Source: an uncultured bacterium (GTDB lineage Bacteria > CAIJMQ01). From it: DNA of 7,427 bases. Position numbers and translations under genes: made by a program. Shown here piece after piece: positions 1,266 to 7,427 of the stretch; within the stretch, counting starts at the first letter, position 1; each line of letters opens with the position of its first letter. The notes beneath the pieces were generated by a model. The model saw only the letters and a list, made by a program, of their open reading frames with translations. It had not been told where the DNA came from and did no database searches. The stretch covers positions 1-7,427 of the forward strand of contig CAIJMQ010000045.1 in NCBI GenBank assembly GCA_903821905.1, read 5' to 3'.

Positions 1266-1363
1266 AATATTGTGGGTAAATTCTAAACCCCAATTTTCCA
1301 ATTTCTACTGCCTGTGGAAGAGAAATTGTTTAGTACTTATACCCTGTAGAGATCAGAGGTTAT
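1266..1363 (+). promoter_or_regulatory. Structured purL 5' leader with three consecutive stem-loops
   Basis: The leader can fold into three hairpins by hand pairing. Hairpin 1 pairs ATTG-(T bulge)-GGGT (1269-1277) with ACCCCAAT (1287-1294), a 9-nt loop between, and may extend outward through A1266/A1267 with T1296/T1297 across one mismatch. Hairpin 2 pairs CAATTTCT (1299-1306) with AGAAATTG (1321-1328), all 8 bp perfect; it can continue inward as CT/AG and CC/GG to a TGT loop at 1313-1315. Hairpin 3 pairs CCCTG (1342-1346) with CAG-A-GG (1354-1359), with weaker flanking pairs out to about 1339 and 1363. No terminator-like T-run follows any of them. It does not match the purine, PRPP or ZTP riboswitch consensus sequences I can recall. 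Function unknown; a regulatory leader is inferred from position. Confidence 0.4.
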
Positions 1364-1376
1364 TACGGCTTGATAT

Positions 1377-1381
1377 AGGAG
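1377..1381 (+). promoter_or_regulatory. Ribosome binding site of purL
   Basis: AGGAG lies 11 nt before ATG 1393 and 5 nt before an in-frame TTG at 1387. The family N terminus (MHTIEVTF-like) fits ATG 1393. TTG 1387 would add only two residues and cannot be excluded. This site argues against the longer open frame that reaches back to TTG 1270, whose extra 41 residues overlap the leader hairpins and do not resemble PurL. Confidence 0.65.
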
Positions 1382-1392
1382 TTGTTTTGAAT

Positions 1393-4300
1393 ATGCATAC
1401 AATAGAGGTAACCTTCAATTCTGCATTAAAGGATCCTTTTGTAGGAAATAAAAGGAAAGAAATTCTTGGTCTAGGTTTACCTGTACAGTCTGTCAAGGAA
1501 ATATTTTTATATACAATTGACAAAGAATTTACAAAAAAAGAGCTAACTTCCCTTGCAAAAGAGCTATTCTCTGACCCTCTAATACAAGAATTTTCTGTTG
1601 ATAAGTCCATGCTTAACAAATTCCACTGGGATTGGCTTATATATGTAAACAACCTGCCCGGCGTTAAAGATAATGTAGGGGACCGGTCTCAAGAAGCGAT
1701 TGAAGACATTTTAAGCGTGGAATTTAATAAAGGAGAAGCTGTCTACACATCGAAATACTATCTAATAAATGGGGATTTAACAAGAAAAGATGTTGATAAA
1801 ATTGCTAAAGAGGCTTTTGCATATGAATCTGTAGAATCTTGGCATATTTTAGACAGGGAAACGTATTCAGAAAAAGGATTTACACCTGAAATTCCCAAGG
1901 TGCTAATCAAACATCAACCCCAAATTTCAGAATTTAACTTAAATACTTCAGGGGAATTGCTGAAGCTAAGCAAACAAAAAAATCTCGCCTTAAATCTTCA
2001 AGAGATGAAAAAAATTAAAGAATATTTCTCAAAGATTGATGTGATAAAGGCAAGAAGAAAAATGGGGTTTAATGAGAAACCAACAGACTCAGAACTGGAA
2101 GTTTTGGCACAAACATGGTCGGAACACTGTAAACATAAAATATTCAATGCATATGTTACATATACCGATGGTGTAAAAACCGAACATGTAAACAGTCTTT
2201 TTAAGACTTATATCCGTTCTTCAACGGAAAAACTCCAGAAAAAACTAAAATGGATAGTTTCTACACTCTGGGATAATTCAGGCGTTATACAATTTAACGA
2301 TAAATATCTATTTGCTTTCAAATGCGAAACCCACAATTCTCCGTCGTCAAAGTACCCCTATGGTGGAGCTCTCACGGGTATAGTAGGAGTATATCGTGAC
2401 CCTATGGGAACAGGCAAGGGAGTAAAACTCATATACGGTACATATGGTTTCTGCACATCTGAACCTAATTATAACGGTCCCATAAAACCGGAAATTCATC
2501 CCAAAAGACTACTAGAAGGAGTTAGAAAAGGTGTGCAGGACGGCGGCAACAAACATGGGGTCCCTACTCCTTATGGAATTGTATTTTTTGACAATGGATA
2601 TCTCGGAAAACCCGCTATATATGTTTTAGCGGCAGGCATTATCCCAAGGACAATAAATGGAGAAAGTGGGGCAGAGAAACAGCCTAATCCAGGGGACTTG
2701 ATTGTAATGTGCGGAGGGAAAGTAGGTATTGACGGTATTCACGGCGCTACCGAATCTTCAATGGAAGGAGGAGCACATATCACTTTGGGGCATGTTCAAA
2801 TGGGAGACCCTTATACTCAAAAGAAAATGCACGACTTTCTAAATGAAGCAAGGGATAAGTGCCTATACACTTGTATTCAGGATTGCGGAGCCGGAGGACT
2901 TTCTTCCAGCGTGGGAGAGATGGGCTATAATTTCGGGAGAAAAGGCGGAGCAAAAGGCTTTAAACTTTATTTGGATAGAGTCCCACTAAAATATAAAGGC
3001 CTAGACCCCTGGCAAATCCTTGTATCGGAATCACAAGAGAGGATGATAGTATCTATATTACCTGAAAAATTGAAAGAATTCATGAAACTTGCCCAAAAAC
3101 ATGAAGTCGAATCTACGGTTCTTGGAGAACTTAATTCCTCGGGTAAATTTCATACTATATACAATGATAAGCCTGTTACGTTTTTGGATATGCATTTCGT
3201 TCACGAGGGTGTCCCGCAATTAGAACTTGAAGCAAAATGGATAACACCCCAGACAAGAGGTTTAAGAGAACCTCAAATCCCAAAAATAAAAAATCATACT
3301 AAGTTTTTAAAAGAGATGCTTTCAAGACCAAACATTGCGGGCAAAGAATACATAGTAAGGCAATTTGACCACGAAGTTCAGGCAACAAGTGTAATTAAAC
3401 ATTTAGTTGGAGAGAAAAGCGATGTATATTCTGACGGAGTAGTTATAAGGCCTGATTTTGAATCCAATAAAGCGATTGCTATAGCGGCAGGTATAAATCC
3501 CAAATACAGCCAGATTGATACCTATCATATGACAGCAAATGCATTTGACGAAGCAATAAGAAGGGTTATAGCACTTGGGGGAGATATTAAAAAAATTGTA
3601 CTGAATGACAACTTCTGTTGGCCATCACCTCTCCCCGGCAAAGATAATCCGGATGCAAAGTACAAGATGGCTCAATTAGTTAGAGCCAACCGCGCACTAT
3701 TTGACTATACTATTGCCTATGGTACTCCCTGTATATCAGGTAAAGATTCTATGTCTATGGATGCTACTATACCCGACCTAAACGGTAAAAAACATCGCAT
3801 TTCATCATTACCAACTGCAATGTTCTCCAGTGCCGGCATAATAGATGATTATAAGAAATGTGTAACCATGGATGTAAAAAAACCAGGAGATCTGGTTTTT
3901 GTCCTGGGTGAAACATACGATGAATGCGGGGGATCAGAATACTACGAGATGTTTAAAGAGATAGGATTGAATGTCCCTGTTGTAAGAGCGAAGAAGACGG
4001 TTAAACTCTATAGAGCTTTAAGCAAGGCTATTAAGAAAGGGCTGGTTGCATCAGCGCACGGTTGTTATAAGGGGGGATTAGGGATTGCGTTAGCTCAAAC
4101 TTCTTTTGCCGGAGGTTATGGGTTAGATATAGACTTAAATTCTATTCCCAGAGAAAAAATTAATGACGAAGATAGAATTCTTTATTCGGAATCAGCTTCG
4201 AGGTTTATAGTAACTGTTTCTAAGAAACATGAGAAATTATTCAGGGAGATAATGAAAGGTATTGAATTTGGTTTAGTGGGGAAGGTCACAAACAATAGAA

Positions 4301-4395
4301 CTTTTACAGCAAAGGGATTACAGGGTAAAGTTATAATTAAAGAAAATATTGATATTTTGAAAAAAGCCTGGAAAGAACCGTTCGGCAAAATGTAA
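1393..4395 (+). CDS. purL: Phosphoribosylformylglycinamidine (FGAM) synthase, large synthetase subunit PurL
   Basis: A cytosolic enzyme that uses ATP and PurQ-derived ammonia to convert FGAR to FGAM in de novo purine synthesis. The product is 1000 residues. Residues 1-155 hold two tandem PurS-like segments (about 1-75 and 78-155, the second with LPGVKDNVGDRSQEA at 88-102), then the FGAM synthase linker with TWSEHCKHK (241-249). The two AIRS-type halves follow. The first has KCETHNSPS (310-318), YGGALTGIVGVYRDPMGTG (323-341), MEGGAHITLGHVQMGDP (457-473) and DCGAGGLSSSVGEM (497-510). The second has DGVVIRP (681-687), NAFDEAIRRVIALGGD (716-731), NDNFCWPSP (738-746), SGKDSMSMD (782-790) and AHGCYKGGLGIALA (888-901). 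There is no C-terminal glutaminase domain; that activity is the next gene, 6 nt downstream. This is the intermediate architecture between the about 1300-residue single-chain enzyme and the small PurL that needs separate PurS. All recognisable key motifs are intact. Stop TAA 4393-4395. Confidence 0.96.
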   Translation: MHTIEVTFNSALKDPFVGNKRKEILGLGLPVQSVKEIFLYTIDKEFTKKELTSLAKELFSDPLIQEFSVDKSMLNKFHWDWLIYVNNLPGVKDNVGDRSQEAIEDILSVEFNKGEAVYTSKYYLINGDLTRKDVDKIAKEAFAYESVESWHILDRETYSEKGFTPEIPKVLIKHQPQISEFNLNTSGELLKLSKQKNLALNLQEMKKIKEYFSKIDVIKARRKMGFNEKPTDSELEVLAQTWSEHCKHKIFNAYVTYTDGVKTEHVNSLFKTYIRSSTEKLQKKLKWIVSTLWDNSGVIQFNDKYLFAFKCETHNSPSSKYPYGGALTGIVGVYRDPMGTGKGVKLIYGTYGFCTSEPNYNGPIKPEIHPKRLLEGVRKGVQDGGNKHGVPTPYGIVFFDNGYLGKPAIYVLAAGIIPRTINGESGAEKQPNPGDLIVMCGGKVGIDGIHGATESSMEGGAHITLGHVQMGDPYTQKKMHDFLNEARDKCLYTCIQDCGAGGLSSSVGEMGYNFGRKGGAKGFKLYLDRVPLKYKGLDPWQILVSESQERMIVSILPEKLKEFMKLAQKHEVESTVLGELNSSGKFHTIYNDKPVTFLDMHFVHEGVPQLELEAKWITPQTRGLREPQIPKIKNHTKFLKEMLSRPNIAGKEYIVRQFDHEVQATSVIKHLVGEKSDVYSDGVVIRPDFESNKAIAIAAGINPKYSQIDTYHMTANAFDEAIRRVIALGGDIKKIVLNDNFCWPSPLPGKDNPDAKYKMAQLVRANRALFDYTIAYGTPCISGKDSMSMDATIPDLNGKKHRISSLPTAMFSSAGIIDDYKKCVTMDVKKPGDLVFVLGETYDECGGSEYYEMFKEIGLNVPVVRAKKTVKLYRALSKAIKKGLVASAHGCYKGGLGIALAQTSFAGGYGLDIDLNSIPREKINDEDRILYSESASRFIVTVSKKHEKLFREIMKGIEFGLVGKVTNNRTFTAKGLQGKVIIKENIDILKKAWKEPFGKM

Positions 4396-4401
4396 GCAAA
4401 C

Positions 4402-5187
4402 ATGAGAAAAGTTAAAGTTCTTGTATTATATGGGCACGGTATAAACTGTGATAATGAGACAAGTAAAGCATTTGAATTGGCAGGAGCCTATGCAGAAAAA
4501 GTTCATACCAATGAACTTATAGAAAATTCCAATAAGTTGGATACTTATGACATCTTGGCATTTCCGGGAGGATTCTCGTTTGGAGATGATATCGCTGCCG
4601 GGAAAATTCATGCTGTAAAATTTAAATATAGATTAAGAGAAAATCTCTCAAGGTTCATTGCAGATAAAAAACTTATTATAGGGATATGTAACGGGTTTCA
4701 GATAATGGTAAAACTGGGCATTCTCCCGGGAATAGATAACGACTATTGGACAGAAAAAGTAACTTTAACATTTAATGATTCAGGAAAATTTGAAGATAGA
4801 TGGGTATACTTAAAAATAGGAAAATCTCCCTGTACATTTACTAAAGATATTCAGGGGCTATACTTACCGGTAAGACACGGGGAAGGGAAATTCTATACAA
4901 ACCAGGGAATACTTAATAAACTTAAAAAAAATAACCTTGTCGCTATACGATACGTAGGAGCTAATAACGAGAAGAACCCTGGTTATCCTTTTAATCCCAA
5001 CGGTTCTTTAGATGATATTGCAGGAATATGTGACCCTTCCGGCAGAATCTTTGGTATCATGCCTCATCCTGAAGCTTATATTTATAAAGAAAATCATCCT
5101 CGACACACAAGGGAAAAATTACCAGAAGAGGGAATGGGGCTTAAGATTTTCAGAAATGCAGTGAAATATGTAAAAGATAATCTTTAA
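4402..5187 (+). CDS. purQ: FGAM synthase glutaminase subunit PurQ
   Basis: A class I glutamine amidotransferase that hydrolyses glutamine and delivers ammonia to PurL for FGAM formation. At 261 residues it is longer than the about 225-residue Bacillus-type PurQ and matches the class partnered with large PurL. Seen in order: YGHGINCDNETSKAFELAGA (10-29), FPGGFSFGDD (54-63), the nucleophile elbow GICNGFQ (94-100, Cys96), PVRHGEGKFY (156-165), the NPNGSLDDIAGI signature (198-209), and GIMPHPEAY (218-226) supplying His222 and Glu224 of the triad. The start ATG 4402 is 6 nt after the purL stop with no clear Shine-Dalgarno between, so reinitiation after purL is likely. This would keep the two subunits in stoichiometry. 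Cotranscribed with purL; no terminator is evident after it. Stop TAA 5185-5187. Confidence 0.96.
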   Translation: MRKVKVLVLYGHGINCDNETSKAFELAGAYAEKVHTNELIENSNKLDTYDILAFPGGFSFGDDIAAGKIHAVKFKYRLRENLSRFIADKKLIIGICNGFQIMVKLGILPGIDNDYWTEKVTLTFNDSGKFEDRWVYLKIGKSPCTFTKDIQGLYLPVRHGEGKFYTNQGILNKLKKNNLVAIRYVGANNEKNPGYPFNPNGSLDDIAGICDPSGRIFGIMPHPEAYIYKENHPRHTREKLPEEGMGLKIFRNAVKYVKDNL

Positions 5188-5215
5188 TTTAAAAGATTTG
5201 GTATAATTTAAAAGA
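5171..5215 (+). repeat. Three TAAAAGA copies at 19-bp spacing flanking a promoter
   Basis: TAAAAGA occurs at 5171-5177, 5190-5196 and 5209-5215, each exactly 19 bp from the next. Copies two and three share the longer AATTTAAAAGA. ATCTTT at 5180-5185 is the inverse of AAAGAT, giving a perfect odd-centred palindrome at 5173-5185 (AAAGAT-A-ATCTTT) and a second inverted pair with AAAGATT at 5192-5198. The first copy overlaps the end of purQ; the third overlaps the predicted transcription start of the next unit. It could be an operator array; in DNA this AT-rich it could also be chance. Confidence 0.35.
5199..5207 (+). promoter_or_regulatory. Extended -10 promoter for the ATPase/CvpA/HU unit
   Basis: TGG immediately precedes a perfect TATAAT (5202-5207), giving the TGnTATAAT extended -10 form, which can work without a good -35. 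No convincing -35 is seen 16-18 bp upstream. Predicted transcription start is about 5213-5215, so the leader would be very short and begin at the purine-rich Shine-Dalgarno stretch. Confidence 0.5.
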
Positions 5216-5219
5216 GGGG
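5213..5219 (+). promoter_or_regulatory. Shine-Dalgarno pointing to a non-standard start
   Basis: AGAGGGG at 5213-5219 is the strongest ribosome-binding match near this gene. Seven bases downstream, at 5227, the in-frame codon is ATC, not ATG/GTG/TTG. The GTG at 5231 is out of frame and hits TAA three codons on. A second purine stretch, GGAAGG (5233-5238), is 21 nt from TTG 5260, too far for normal initiation. See the ATPase entry. Confidence 0.45.
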
Positions 5220-5259
5220 TACTCATATCGGTGGAAGGATAACTCTTAGTATTATACTT

Positions 5260-6636
5260 TTGATATTTTCCTATAGCTGGCTTTTTATGGTAGCGTGGGT
5301 AAACATCGATGCCAGAAAAAAAGGAAGGAATATAAAACTCTGTAACAGTTTAGTTTTTTTATTAGTCCCCTTGGGAATATACTTCTATCATAGTTTATAT
5401 ACCACGTTTTTCCCTAAAGAAACAACTCAAAATAATACTTCAACAGGAAACCCTAATAAACCCTCCAAGGGAGCAGACGAAGATAGAAAAATATTGAAGA
5501 CTATTGATAAGATTTTCCAAGATGCTATAACCCACAGAGCATCAGATATCCATTTGGAGCCCGACAAGGAAAAACTAACTATACGATTTAGAATAGATGG
5601 TGTTCTTTATGAATACAAAGGCTTTCCTGAAAACTTAGGAAAAGCAATTATTTCTTCAATCAAAGTTTTAAGTGACTTAGATATAGCCCAAAAAAGAGCT
5701 TTCCAAGACGGAAGTTTCTCCTCTGCAATAAAAGGCAGAAAGATAGATTTCAGGGTGTCAGTTTCTGCATCGCAATACGGAGAGACAATGGTTATAAGAG
5801 TTCTAGACCCTCAGGAAGGATTAGTAGACATCTCACAACTCGGCGTGCTTCCAGAAGTAGAGGAAAAATTCAAATCTGTAGTATTCCGTAACGATGGCGT
5901 CGTGCTAATAGTGGGACCTACAGGATGCGGTAAAACAACTACTCTTTACGCTATACTAAATAAAGTGAACAATTCCGGTAAGAATATTATAAGCATAGAA
6001 GACCCTATTGAATATAAAATTAAAAATATAACCCAGATCCCGGTTAATCCACGCGCAGGAGTAACATTTGCGAATAGTCTTAGAAGTATACTTCGCCAGG
6101 ATCCGGACATAATAATGGTAGGAGAAATACGAGATATTGAAACTGCCAAAATAGCAATAGAAGCTTCCCTTACAGGACATTTGGTATTCTCAACTCTGCA
6201 TACAAGAGATTCAATAAGCACAATTACACGACTATTGGAAATGGGGTTTGAACGTTATCTTATCTCCTCTTCTCTTGCTGGAATAATCAGTCAAAGGTTA
6301 GTAAGGCTCTTGTGCCCGCAATGTAAAATTCCTTATGTTCTTTCTGCTGATAAATCTTTTGGTCAAGAAGGACCACAACTAAAAGCTGGAGAACAGGTTT
6401 ATAAAGCAAAGGGTTGTAATTATTGTTCCAACACTGGTTACAGAAAATGTACGGGATTATTTGAAGTTTTTGCAATTGACAAAAAAATAAAGGAATTAAT
6501 TAATAGCAAAGTATCAGAGGAAGAAATTTTCATACAAGCCAAAAAAGATGGTTTAATTACATTAACAGAAGATGGTTTAATAAAAATAAGACGAGGACTT
6601 ACCAGCATAGAAGAAATTGAGAGCGTAATAAGATGA
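5260..6636 (+). CDS. Membrane-anchored GspE/PilB-family secretion ATPase
   Basis: Hexameric AAA-like motor of the type II secretion/type IV pilus assembly family. Numbering is from TTG 5260 (458 residues). Seen: DAITHRASDIHLEP (88-101) of the N2 domain, Walker A GPTGCGKTT (219-227), Asp box ISIEDPIEY (244-252), Walker B LRQDPDIIMVGEIRD (278-292), His box TGHLVFSTLHT (305-315), QRLVRLLCPQC (345-355), then GCNYC (385-389). CxxC 352/355 and CxxC 386/389 form the zinc site typical of GspE/PilB and absent from PilT, indicating an assembly rather than retraction motor. The usual N1 domain is missing; residues 1-14 and about 29-47 are hydrophobic, joined by a basic loop (DARKKGRN), then a Ser/Thr/Asn/Pro-rich linker to about 75. 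TTG 5260 truncates the first helix. The frame is open from 5212, and ATC 5227 would add 11 residues and complete it. TGYRKC (392-397) replaces the usual TGYxGR. It overlaps the next gene by ATGA. No pilin or PilC gene is visible, so its machine is unknown. Confidence 0.9.
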   Translation: MIFSYSWLFMVAWVNIDARKKGRNIKLCNSLVFLLVPLGIYFYHSLYTTFFPKETTQNNTSTGNPNKPSKGADEDRKILKTIDKIFQDAITHRASDIHLEPDKEKLTIRFRIDGVLYEYKGFPENLGKAIISSIKVLSDLDIAQKRAFQDGSFSSAIKGRKIDFRVSVSASQYGETMVIRVLDPQEGLVDISQLGVLPEVEEKFKSVVFRNDGVVLIVGPTGCGKTTTLYAILNKVNNSGKNIISIEDPIEYKIKNITQIPVNPRAGVTFANSLRSILRQDPDIIMVGEIRDIETAKIAIEASLTGHLVFSTLHTRDSISTITRLLEMGFERYLISSSLAGIISQRLVRLLCPQCKIPYVLSADKSFGQEGPQLKAGEQVYKAKGCNYCSNTGYRKCTGLFEVFAIDKKIKELINSKVSEEEIFIQAKKDGLITLTEDGLIKIRRGLTSIEEIESVIR

Positions 6637-7217
6637 TCTACATACTTAATCTTATAATTCTCCTTGTAATACTATACAGAATATTTATAGGGATAGAAGG
6701 CGGATTGTTTAATGAGATGATAAATCTTGTGAATTTTATATTCAGCGCAGGTATGAGTTTTATTATTTTCAGATCGCTTGGCCCTTATATTGAAGAATAT
6801 ATTTTCCCCAACCAGAGATACGCTCTCGTCATAGCATTCTGGGCATTATTTATATTATTCATATCAATACTATGGTCGATAAAACAGTTATTTTTTTCTA
6901 AAATTTATTCTATGACCAAAGAAAAACCAGTCCCATTGCCGATACTTGTTGACAAGATCGGCGGTGCAATTTGCGGTATTATATTAGCATTGAAAATAAT
7001 GGGCTGTATTATTATCTTTCTATACATAGCACCTGTGACAAAAGATCTATATAGTCTGCATAAAGAAGGTAAAATAATCTTTAAAACGGATGAGAAATGG
7101 GTTAGTTTTAAAAAATTTGATTGGGAAAATTTTTTGAATAATTTAAAACCAGAAGAAAAATCTTTGGGCACGGAGAAAGAACAAAAAACTACCAAAGAAG
7201 AGCCAAAAGAAGAATGA
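6633..7217 (+). CDS. CvpA-like polytopic membrane protein
   Basis: A 194-residue inner-membrane protein with four predicted hydrophobic helices at about 1-20, 28-48, 63-83 and 106-132. The Gly-rich fourth segment LVDKIGGAICGIILAL (105-120) and the glycines after helix 1 (GIEGGLFNEM, 20-29) resemble the colicin V production protein family (CvpA), in which a Gly-rich segment of this kind follows a DR/DK pair. From 133 on it is soluble and charged, ending in a Lys/Glu/Thr-rich low-complexity tail (about 172-194). CvpA is linked to colicin V production, envelope stress and biofilm traits; its biochemical role is not established. The ATG 6633-6635 overlaps the ATPase stop (ATGA), with a weak GAGAG 9 nt upstream, so translation is probably coupled. 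Family assignment is by eye and moderate; a generic four-helix membrane protein is the alternative. Confidence 0.65.
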   Translation: MIYILNLIILLVILYRIFIGIEGGLFNEMINLVNFIFSAGMSFIIFRSLGPYIEEYIFPNQRYALVIAFWALFILFISILWSIKQLFFSKIYSMTKEKPVPLPILVDKIGGAICGIILALKIMGCIIIFLYIAPVTKDLYSLHKEGKIIFKTDEKWVSFKKFDWENFLNNLKPEEKSLGTEKEQKTTKEEPKEE

Positions 7218-7427
7218 AAACCATCACAAAAAAAGACCTTGTAAAGAAAATTTCTTACGCAACAGGAGAACGGCAGAAAATAGTAAAAAGAATAATAGAT
7301 GAGATTTTGGAACATATTACTGAAGCCCTAAAGCGAGGAGAAAGAGTAGAATTAAGAAAGTTTGGTATTTTTAGAATAAATTACAGAGAGGACAAGACAA
7401 TAAGAAATCCACATACGGGAGAGAAAG
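7214..7427 (+). CDS. HU/IHF-family DNA-binding protein (3' end outside window)
   Basis: The first 71 codons of a small nucleoid protein that binds and bends DNA as a dimer. Seen: an N-terminal helical pair beginning MKTITKKDLVKKI (1-13), the ALKRGERVELRKFGIF stretch (38-53) that is the family core, and RNPHTGEK (64-71) at the DNA-intercalating arm, whose conserved Pro is residue 66. Arm spacing from FG (50-51) to RNP (64-66) is 12 residues, as in IHF and HU. The usual Gly before RNP is Ile63, and the arm is less basic than usual. About 20-30 residues should follow beyond the edge. ATG 7214-7216 overlaps the CvpA-like stop (ATGA); the upstream sequence is only an A/G-rich run without a strong Shine-Dalgarno, so coupling is likely. 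Whether HU or IHF alpha/beta cannot be settled. Confidence 0.93.
   Translation, partial: MKTITKKDLVKKISYATGERQKIVKRIIDEILEHITEALKRGERVELRKFGIFRINYREDKTIRNPHTGEK

Follow-up and report, generated by a model that had tools for sequence, protein, structure and literature searches.

Assembly ATPases are described as cytosolic motors, and their N-terminal N1 domain is thought to engage an inner-membrane platform (PMC11656802). The locus described here raises the question of how a GspE/PilB-type ATPase that starts with two hydrophobic segments, and in which no N1 domain is seen, is held at the membrane, and with which partners it works. The gene lies in the window (the whole stretch of 7,427 nucleotides analysed) and belongs to the draft genome of an uncultured bacterium (1.3 Mb, 121 contigs, 84% complete). 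Our analysis points to an undescribed motor-membrane module that comprises this hairpin ATPase and CvpA. The following parts of the ATPase gene were distinguished:

5227..6636, + strand: putatively hairpin-anchored GspE/PilB-type ATPase, 469 aa, with a presumed ATC start at 5227
5230..5319, + strand: predicted membrane helix 1 (residues 2-31; AlphaFold2 and hydrophobicity), which continues into the loop DARKKGRN
5341..5409, + strand: predicted membrane helix 2 (residues 39-61; AlphaFold2 and hydrophobicity), with a PLG...Y motif
5410..5472, + strand: low-complexity polar linker (residues 62-82), pLDDT under 50
5476..6618, + strand: N2 domain and ATPase core (PF00437), residues 84-464, 402 bits
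5914..5943, + strand: Walker A GPTGCGKTTT, read in the sequence
6313..6426, + strand: zinc tetracysteine C363/C366 and C397/C400, invariant in 10/10 aligned members

The hydrophobic segments span residues 5-23 (mean KD 2.2) and 36-54 (mean KD 1.7), and two such segments within the first 62 residues arose in 176 of 20,000 shuffles. Among 25 ordinary ATPases, one hydrophobic segment before N2 was found in two, and two segments in none. AlphaFold2 predicts both helices with modest confidence, in a model with a weak core (mean pLDDT 62.9). No Pfam family scores above its cut-off in the first 72 residues, and since the nearest solved chains, GspE (1p9r) and PilB (5tsg), can be aligned no further upstream than about residue 72-82, an N1 domain of the MshEN or GspE-N type is not seen by either approach. 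These results bear out the original prediction that two hydrophobic stretches replace N1. For its further claim, a direct tethering of the motor to the membrane, the support from sequence is good: the hydrophobic hairpin, predicted to insert into the membrane, is conserved in a clade that extends across several phyla. That such a motor may bypass the usual adaptor, as was also proposed, stays an inference, given that PilC/GspF platforms are encoded as well (see below).

The N2 domain and the catalytic core with its zinc tetracysteine had been read as complete, and so they are: the PF00437 (T2SSE) score far exceeds the curated cut-off of 24.9 (the scan frame opened at 5215, four codons upstream, and its positions 88-468 correspond to residues 84-464), and Walker A, Asp box, Walker B, His box and the CxxC...CxxC motif are all intact. 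The window ATPase shares N2, the RecA-like core and these motifs with GspE and PilB. It differs from them by the membrane hairpin in place of N1, by lying outside any pilus or secretion operon and next to CvpA, and by scores below the equivalog cut-offs (TIGR02533, 478 versus 630; TIGR02538, 456 versus 676). The PilT/PilU model TIGR01420 is also missed (186 versus 319 bits). The competence ATPase ComGA has a closely related core and likewise starts at N2, but the window ATPase remains below the ComGA cut-off (NF041000; 272 versus 300). ComGA is not known to have an N1 domain or a membrane hairpin.

In unrelated genomes, a hairpin-only profile (A2, then A3 and A4) retrieved the N-terminal regions of other GspE/PilB-type ATPases. 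Beyond the window and its relatives G001 and G002, 24 members were found, giving a total of 27 in 27 genomes. Apart from the window's group, they came from a phylum of nine genomes (G212 and G292), a phylum of two genomes (G134 and G271; here, a zinc ribbon follows the hairpin), one further lineage (G358) and, with 19 genomes, one large phylum, which sulfatase genes suggest to be Planctomycetota. In most members of the large phylum, the protein is extended at its N terminus, often by a signal-like stretch, and another hydrophobic segment precedes the ATPase. A scan of named genomes with the hairpin yielded a single locus, L081 (Candidatus Omnitrophota); profile searches of viral contigs yielded no hairpin, and the plasmid search produced only core matches to ordinary GspE.

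In a core-only tree, from which the hairpin columns were removed, 22 hairpin members formed one clade (99/99; 100% of bootstrap trees), apart from the 30 ordinary ATPases and 12 PilT proteins in the tree; a duplicate control and the five degenerate members, whose branches are long, were left out. When the five degenerate rows were added, 27/27 still formed one group, with a weak support of 42. Judged by their core alignment, the hairpin ATPases are a distinct clade of common ancestry. If its built-in anchor is functional, this conserved clade would show a second docking mode for assembly ATPases.

Several candidates were discarded. Profile hits in G211, G162, G264, G184, G284, G002:C10 and G000:C18 had no hairpin ATPase among the listed genes, nor was one seen at the G553 locus, and small zinc-ribbon proteins in G004 and G005, considered as a split-off hairpin, do not contain the motif. 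The Walker A of the G001 member (L012:1495-2907) reads GHTGCGKT, with a Pro to His exchange. In G264, near-identical antisense ORFs (L099:5864-6163 and 8113-8547) lie by duplicated glycosyltransferase-like genes and represent a repeated cassette.

How the hairpin would be inserted may be judged from its charges, which are positive after both helices in several members. If the DARKKGRN loop is cytosolic according to the positive-inside rule, two membrane crossings would place the ATPase outside, an outcome avoided only by a re-entrant helix 2 or by a departure from the rule. In the large-phylum form, the signal-like start and three segments would put the charged loop and the ATPase both in the cytosol, and this analogy suggests that helix 2 with the PLG motif might be re-entrant in the two-segment form. 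The order of elements in the ATPase hairpin (helix, charged loop, helix with P-G...Y before a globular domain) is also that of the PLDc_N hairpins of cardiolipin synthases, a likeness noted in the original prediction. Ten ATPase hairpins were compared with PLDc_N (PF13396) itself and gave no match; the likeness is supported only indirectly, by a hairpin-FHA protein of G177, which was found by the hairpin profile and matches PLDc_N over the cut-off. This protein (L146:2655-3332), which also has a zinc ribbon, is encoded beside a protein kinase lookalike. It seems that the hairpin can be reused as a membrane anchor. Small proteins with a hairpin of the DA+RRG type occur at L140, L141 and L142 (hairpin profile E 1e-7 to 1e-9), and in two of these the start is signal-like.

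The gene order in the window is nusA (reverse), purL, purQ, ATPase, cvpA and HU, and it is retained in G001 and G002, where tyrS (assigned by sequence) follows HU. The two genes downstream of the ATPase are:

6633..7217, + strand: CvpA-family (Colicin_V, PF02674) four-helix membrane protein; its start overlaps the ATPase stop (ATGA)
7214..7427, + strand: HU-family DNA-binding protein; overlaps the cvpA stop and is truncated by the window end

The ATGA overlaps of ATPase with cvpA and of cvpA with HU suggest translational coupling, and the overlaps and short gaps between the genes fit a single operon. The window CvpA scores 44.3 bits against PF02674 (cut-off 29.3), and its model contains helices at residues 2-23, 25-56, 61-95 and 104-132. 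Structure searches with this model turned up nothing convincing (best Foldseek E 5; VIA Z 3.6), and no solved relative was found by sequence. The genes purL and purQ (window 1270-5187) precede the pair, and purM follows it at L136 (L136:4675-5676); in E. coli, cvpA adjoins purF.

Directly downstream of the ATPase, 24 of the 27 members carry a CvpA or CvpA-like gene in the same orientation, as against 0/31 ordinary ATPases (34 control loci); the corresponding Fisher p of 2e-13 is overstated, as the members are related. All nine CvpA proteins of alignment A6 match PF02674; among the CvpA-like neighbours, L177 and L184 fall under the Pfam cut-off, L179 just under and L180 over it. The three members that have no adjacent CvpA (L138, L172, L174) belong to one genus. 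There, the ATPase is followed by a 107-aa protein (MPLFEIETDAHIM...; L138:5437-5760, L172:3265-3588, L174:3402-3725). At L137, a PilZ-domain gene (L137:5831-6577) comes immediately after cvpA. The pair of ATPase and CvpA comes and goes together, since G003-G006 of the window's class as well as G293, G295 and G071, some of which are incomplete genomes, have neither a hairpin ATPase nor a Colicin_V match. CvpA families are also found without any hairpin ATPase.

A PilT-type gene adjoins in at least ten members, upstream in L138, L172, L174, L176, L178, L179, L180, L181 and L184, and after cvpA in L100, and the catalytic motifs of these neighbours are intact. The window locus has no PilT-type neighbour. 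Other flanking genes vary from phylum to phylum. The gene partnership of ATPase and CvpA is well supported. No description of the pair was found in the literature, and no full text on a hairpin-anchored PilB/GspE either, subscription papers lying outside the search. In E. coli, cvpA has a link to the export of colicin V and is required for deoxycholate resistance, and CvpA was called uncharacterized until this phenotype emerged (PMC6705877). The gene downstream of the window ATPase is a member of this family, but its genetic coupling to a secretion-type ATPase sets it apart from known CvpA.

We consider it somewhat probable that these GspE/PilB-type ATPases are a membrane-tethered clade and form an inner-membrane module with CvpA, in many cases joined by PilT. 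Anchored in the inner membrane by the hydrophobic hairpin that replaces N1, the motor would work with the neighbouring four-helix CvpA and, in many lineages, with a PilT-type ATPase from an adjoining gene. The ATPase would most likely form the usual hexamer, with the hairpins clustered around CvpA, and ATP-driven movement would be passed to CvpA through the membrane rather than via PilM or GspL. The best-supported of these steps is the functional tie between ATPase and CvpA, which would offer a testable mechanism for CvpA.

Alternatively, the protein might be an ordinary assembly motor of a type IV pilus or type II secretion system, the hairpin standing in for N1 in docking at PilC/GspF and CvpA being a bystander in the operon. 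GspE and PilB are the closest solved relatives, the active-site motifs of the window ATPase are intact, and the PilT neighbours would suit an extension/retraction pair. Moreover, PilC/GspF platforms are encoded in 22/22 genomes tested. Yet, no pilus or type II secretion genes lie beside the ATPase in the window, G001 or G002, and the CvpA neighbour is conserved across phyla. The suggested check of the source genome for a standard motor gave a positive answer: family searches detected ordinary full-length PilB/GspE-type ATPases, PilT-type genes, PilC-type platforms and secretins elsewhere, and two of the ordinary ATPases share a contig with PilC-family genes. We therefore regard an ordinary motor as unlikely.

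A different role is raised by the five degenerate members (L177, L179, L180, L181, L184), in which the Walker A lysine is gone, as are the usual context of Walker B and the His box, yet which retain an IDG motif in N2, the tetracysteines, the hairpin and the CvpA-like neighbour. Because their open frames are complete and similar changes occur in four of the five, they look like retained pseudo-enzymes rather than products of decay within one assembly, to judge from the reading frames. Their existence implies that ATP hydrolysis by the hairpin subunit is not required in every lineage, and this branch with a dead active site provides a natural test of the motor's contribution. Accordingly, the hairpin protein could serve as a membrane scaffold or regulator for CvpA and the PilT-type ATPase, recruiting or gating them, with its own hydrolysis secondary; the PilT beside L179, L180, L181 and L184 is intact. 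However, the degenerate five sit on long branches, and catalytic motifs are kept in 22 of the 27 members, the window ATPase among them, so that hydrolysis is probably used in most lineages; as a general explanation, the scaffold appears quite improbable. Going beyond the module of tethered ATPase and CvpA favoured above, the clade might be a pilus-independent machine, in which a membrane-fixed hexamer of a secretion-type ATPase drives CvpA; one branch would then have kept the ATPase only as an inactive scaffold, with the energy supplied by the neighbouring PilT. This proposal is tentative, and possible rather than probable; if true, CvpA, a widespread membrane protein, would use energy coupling to act in the transport across, or the integrity of, the envelope.

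That N1 was simply removed by a frameshift or an assembly error, the hydrophobic stretch being due to chance, is no longer credible: the non-canonical ATC start and the fragmented draft in 121 contigs would favour this explanation, which the original prediction had itself named, but it is already refuted by conserved orthologues, since G001 and G002 share the identical architecture (75% identity) and the gene order, and the architecture also occurs in unrelated phyla, while the gap between purQ and the ATPase gene is too small for an N1 coding sequence. Upstream of the gene, two short elements were noted:

5202..5207, + strand: TATAAT, a -10-like box read directly, immediately 5' of the ATPase gene
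5214..5219, + strand: Shine-Dalgarno GAGGGG, 7 nt upstream of the presumed ATC

As the promoter scan scored no sigma-70 -35 partner for the TATAAT box, its role as a promoter element is a suggestion only; its position is common to both relatives. The spacing of the Shine-Dalgarno sequence to the presumed ATC is good, and both G001 and G002 have a TTG aligned with this codon. The first listed start is a TTG at 5260, the use of which would truncate helix 1.
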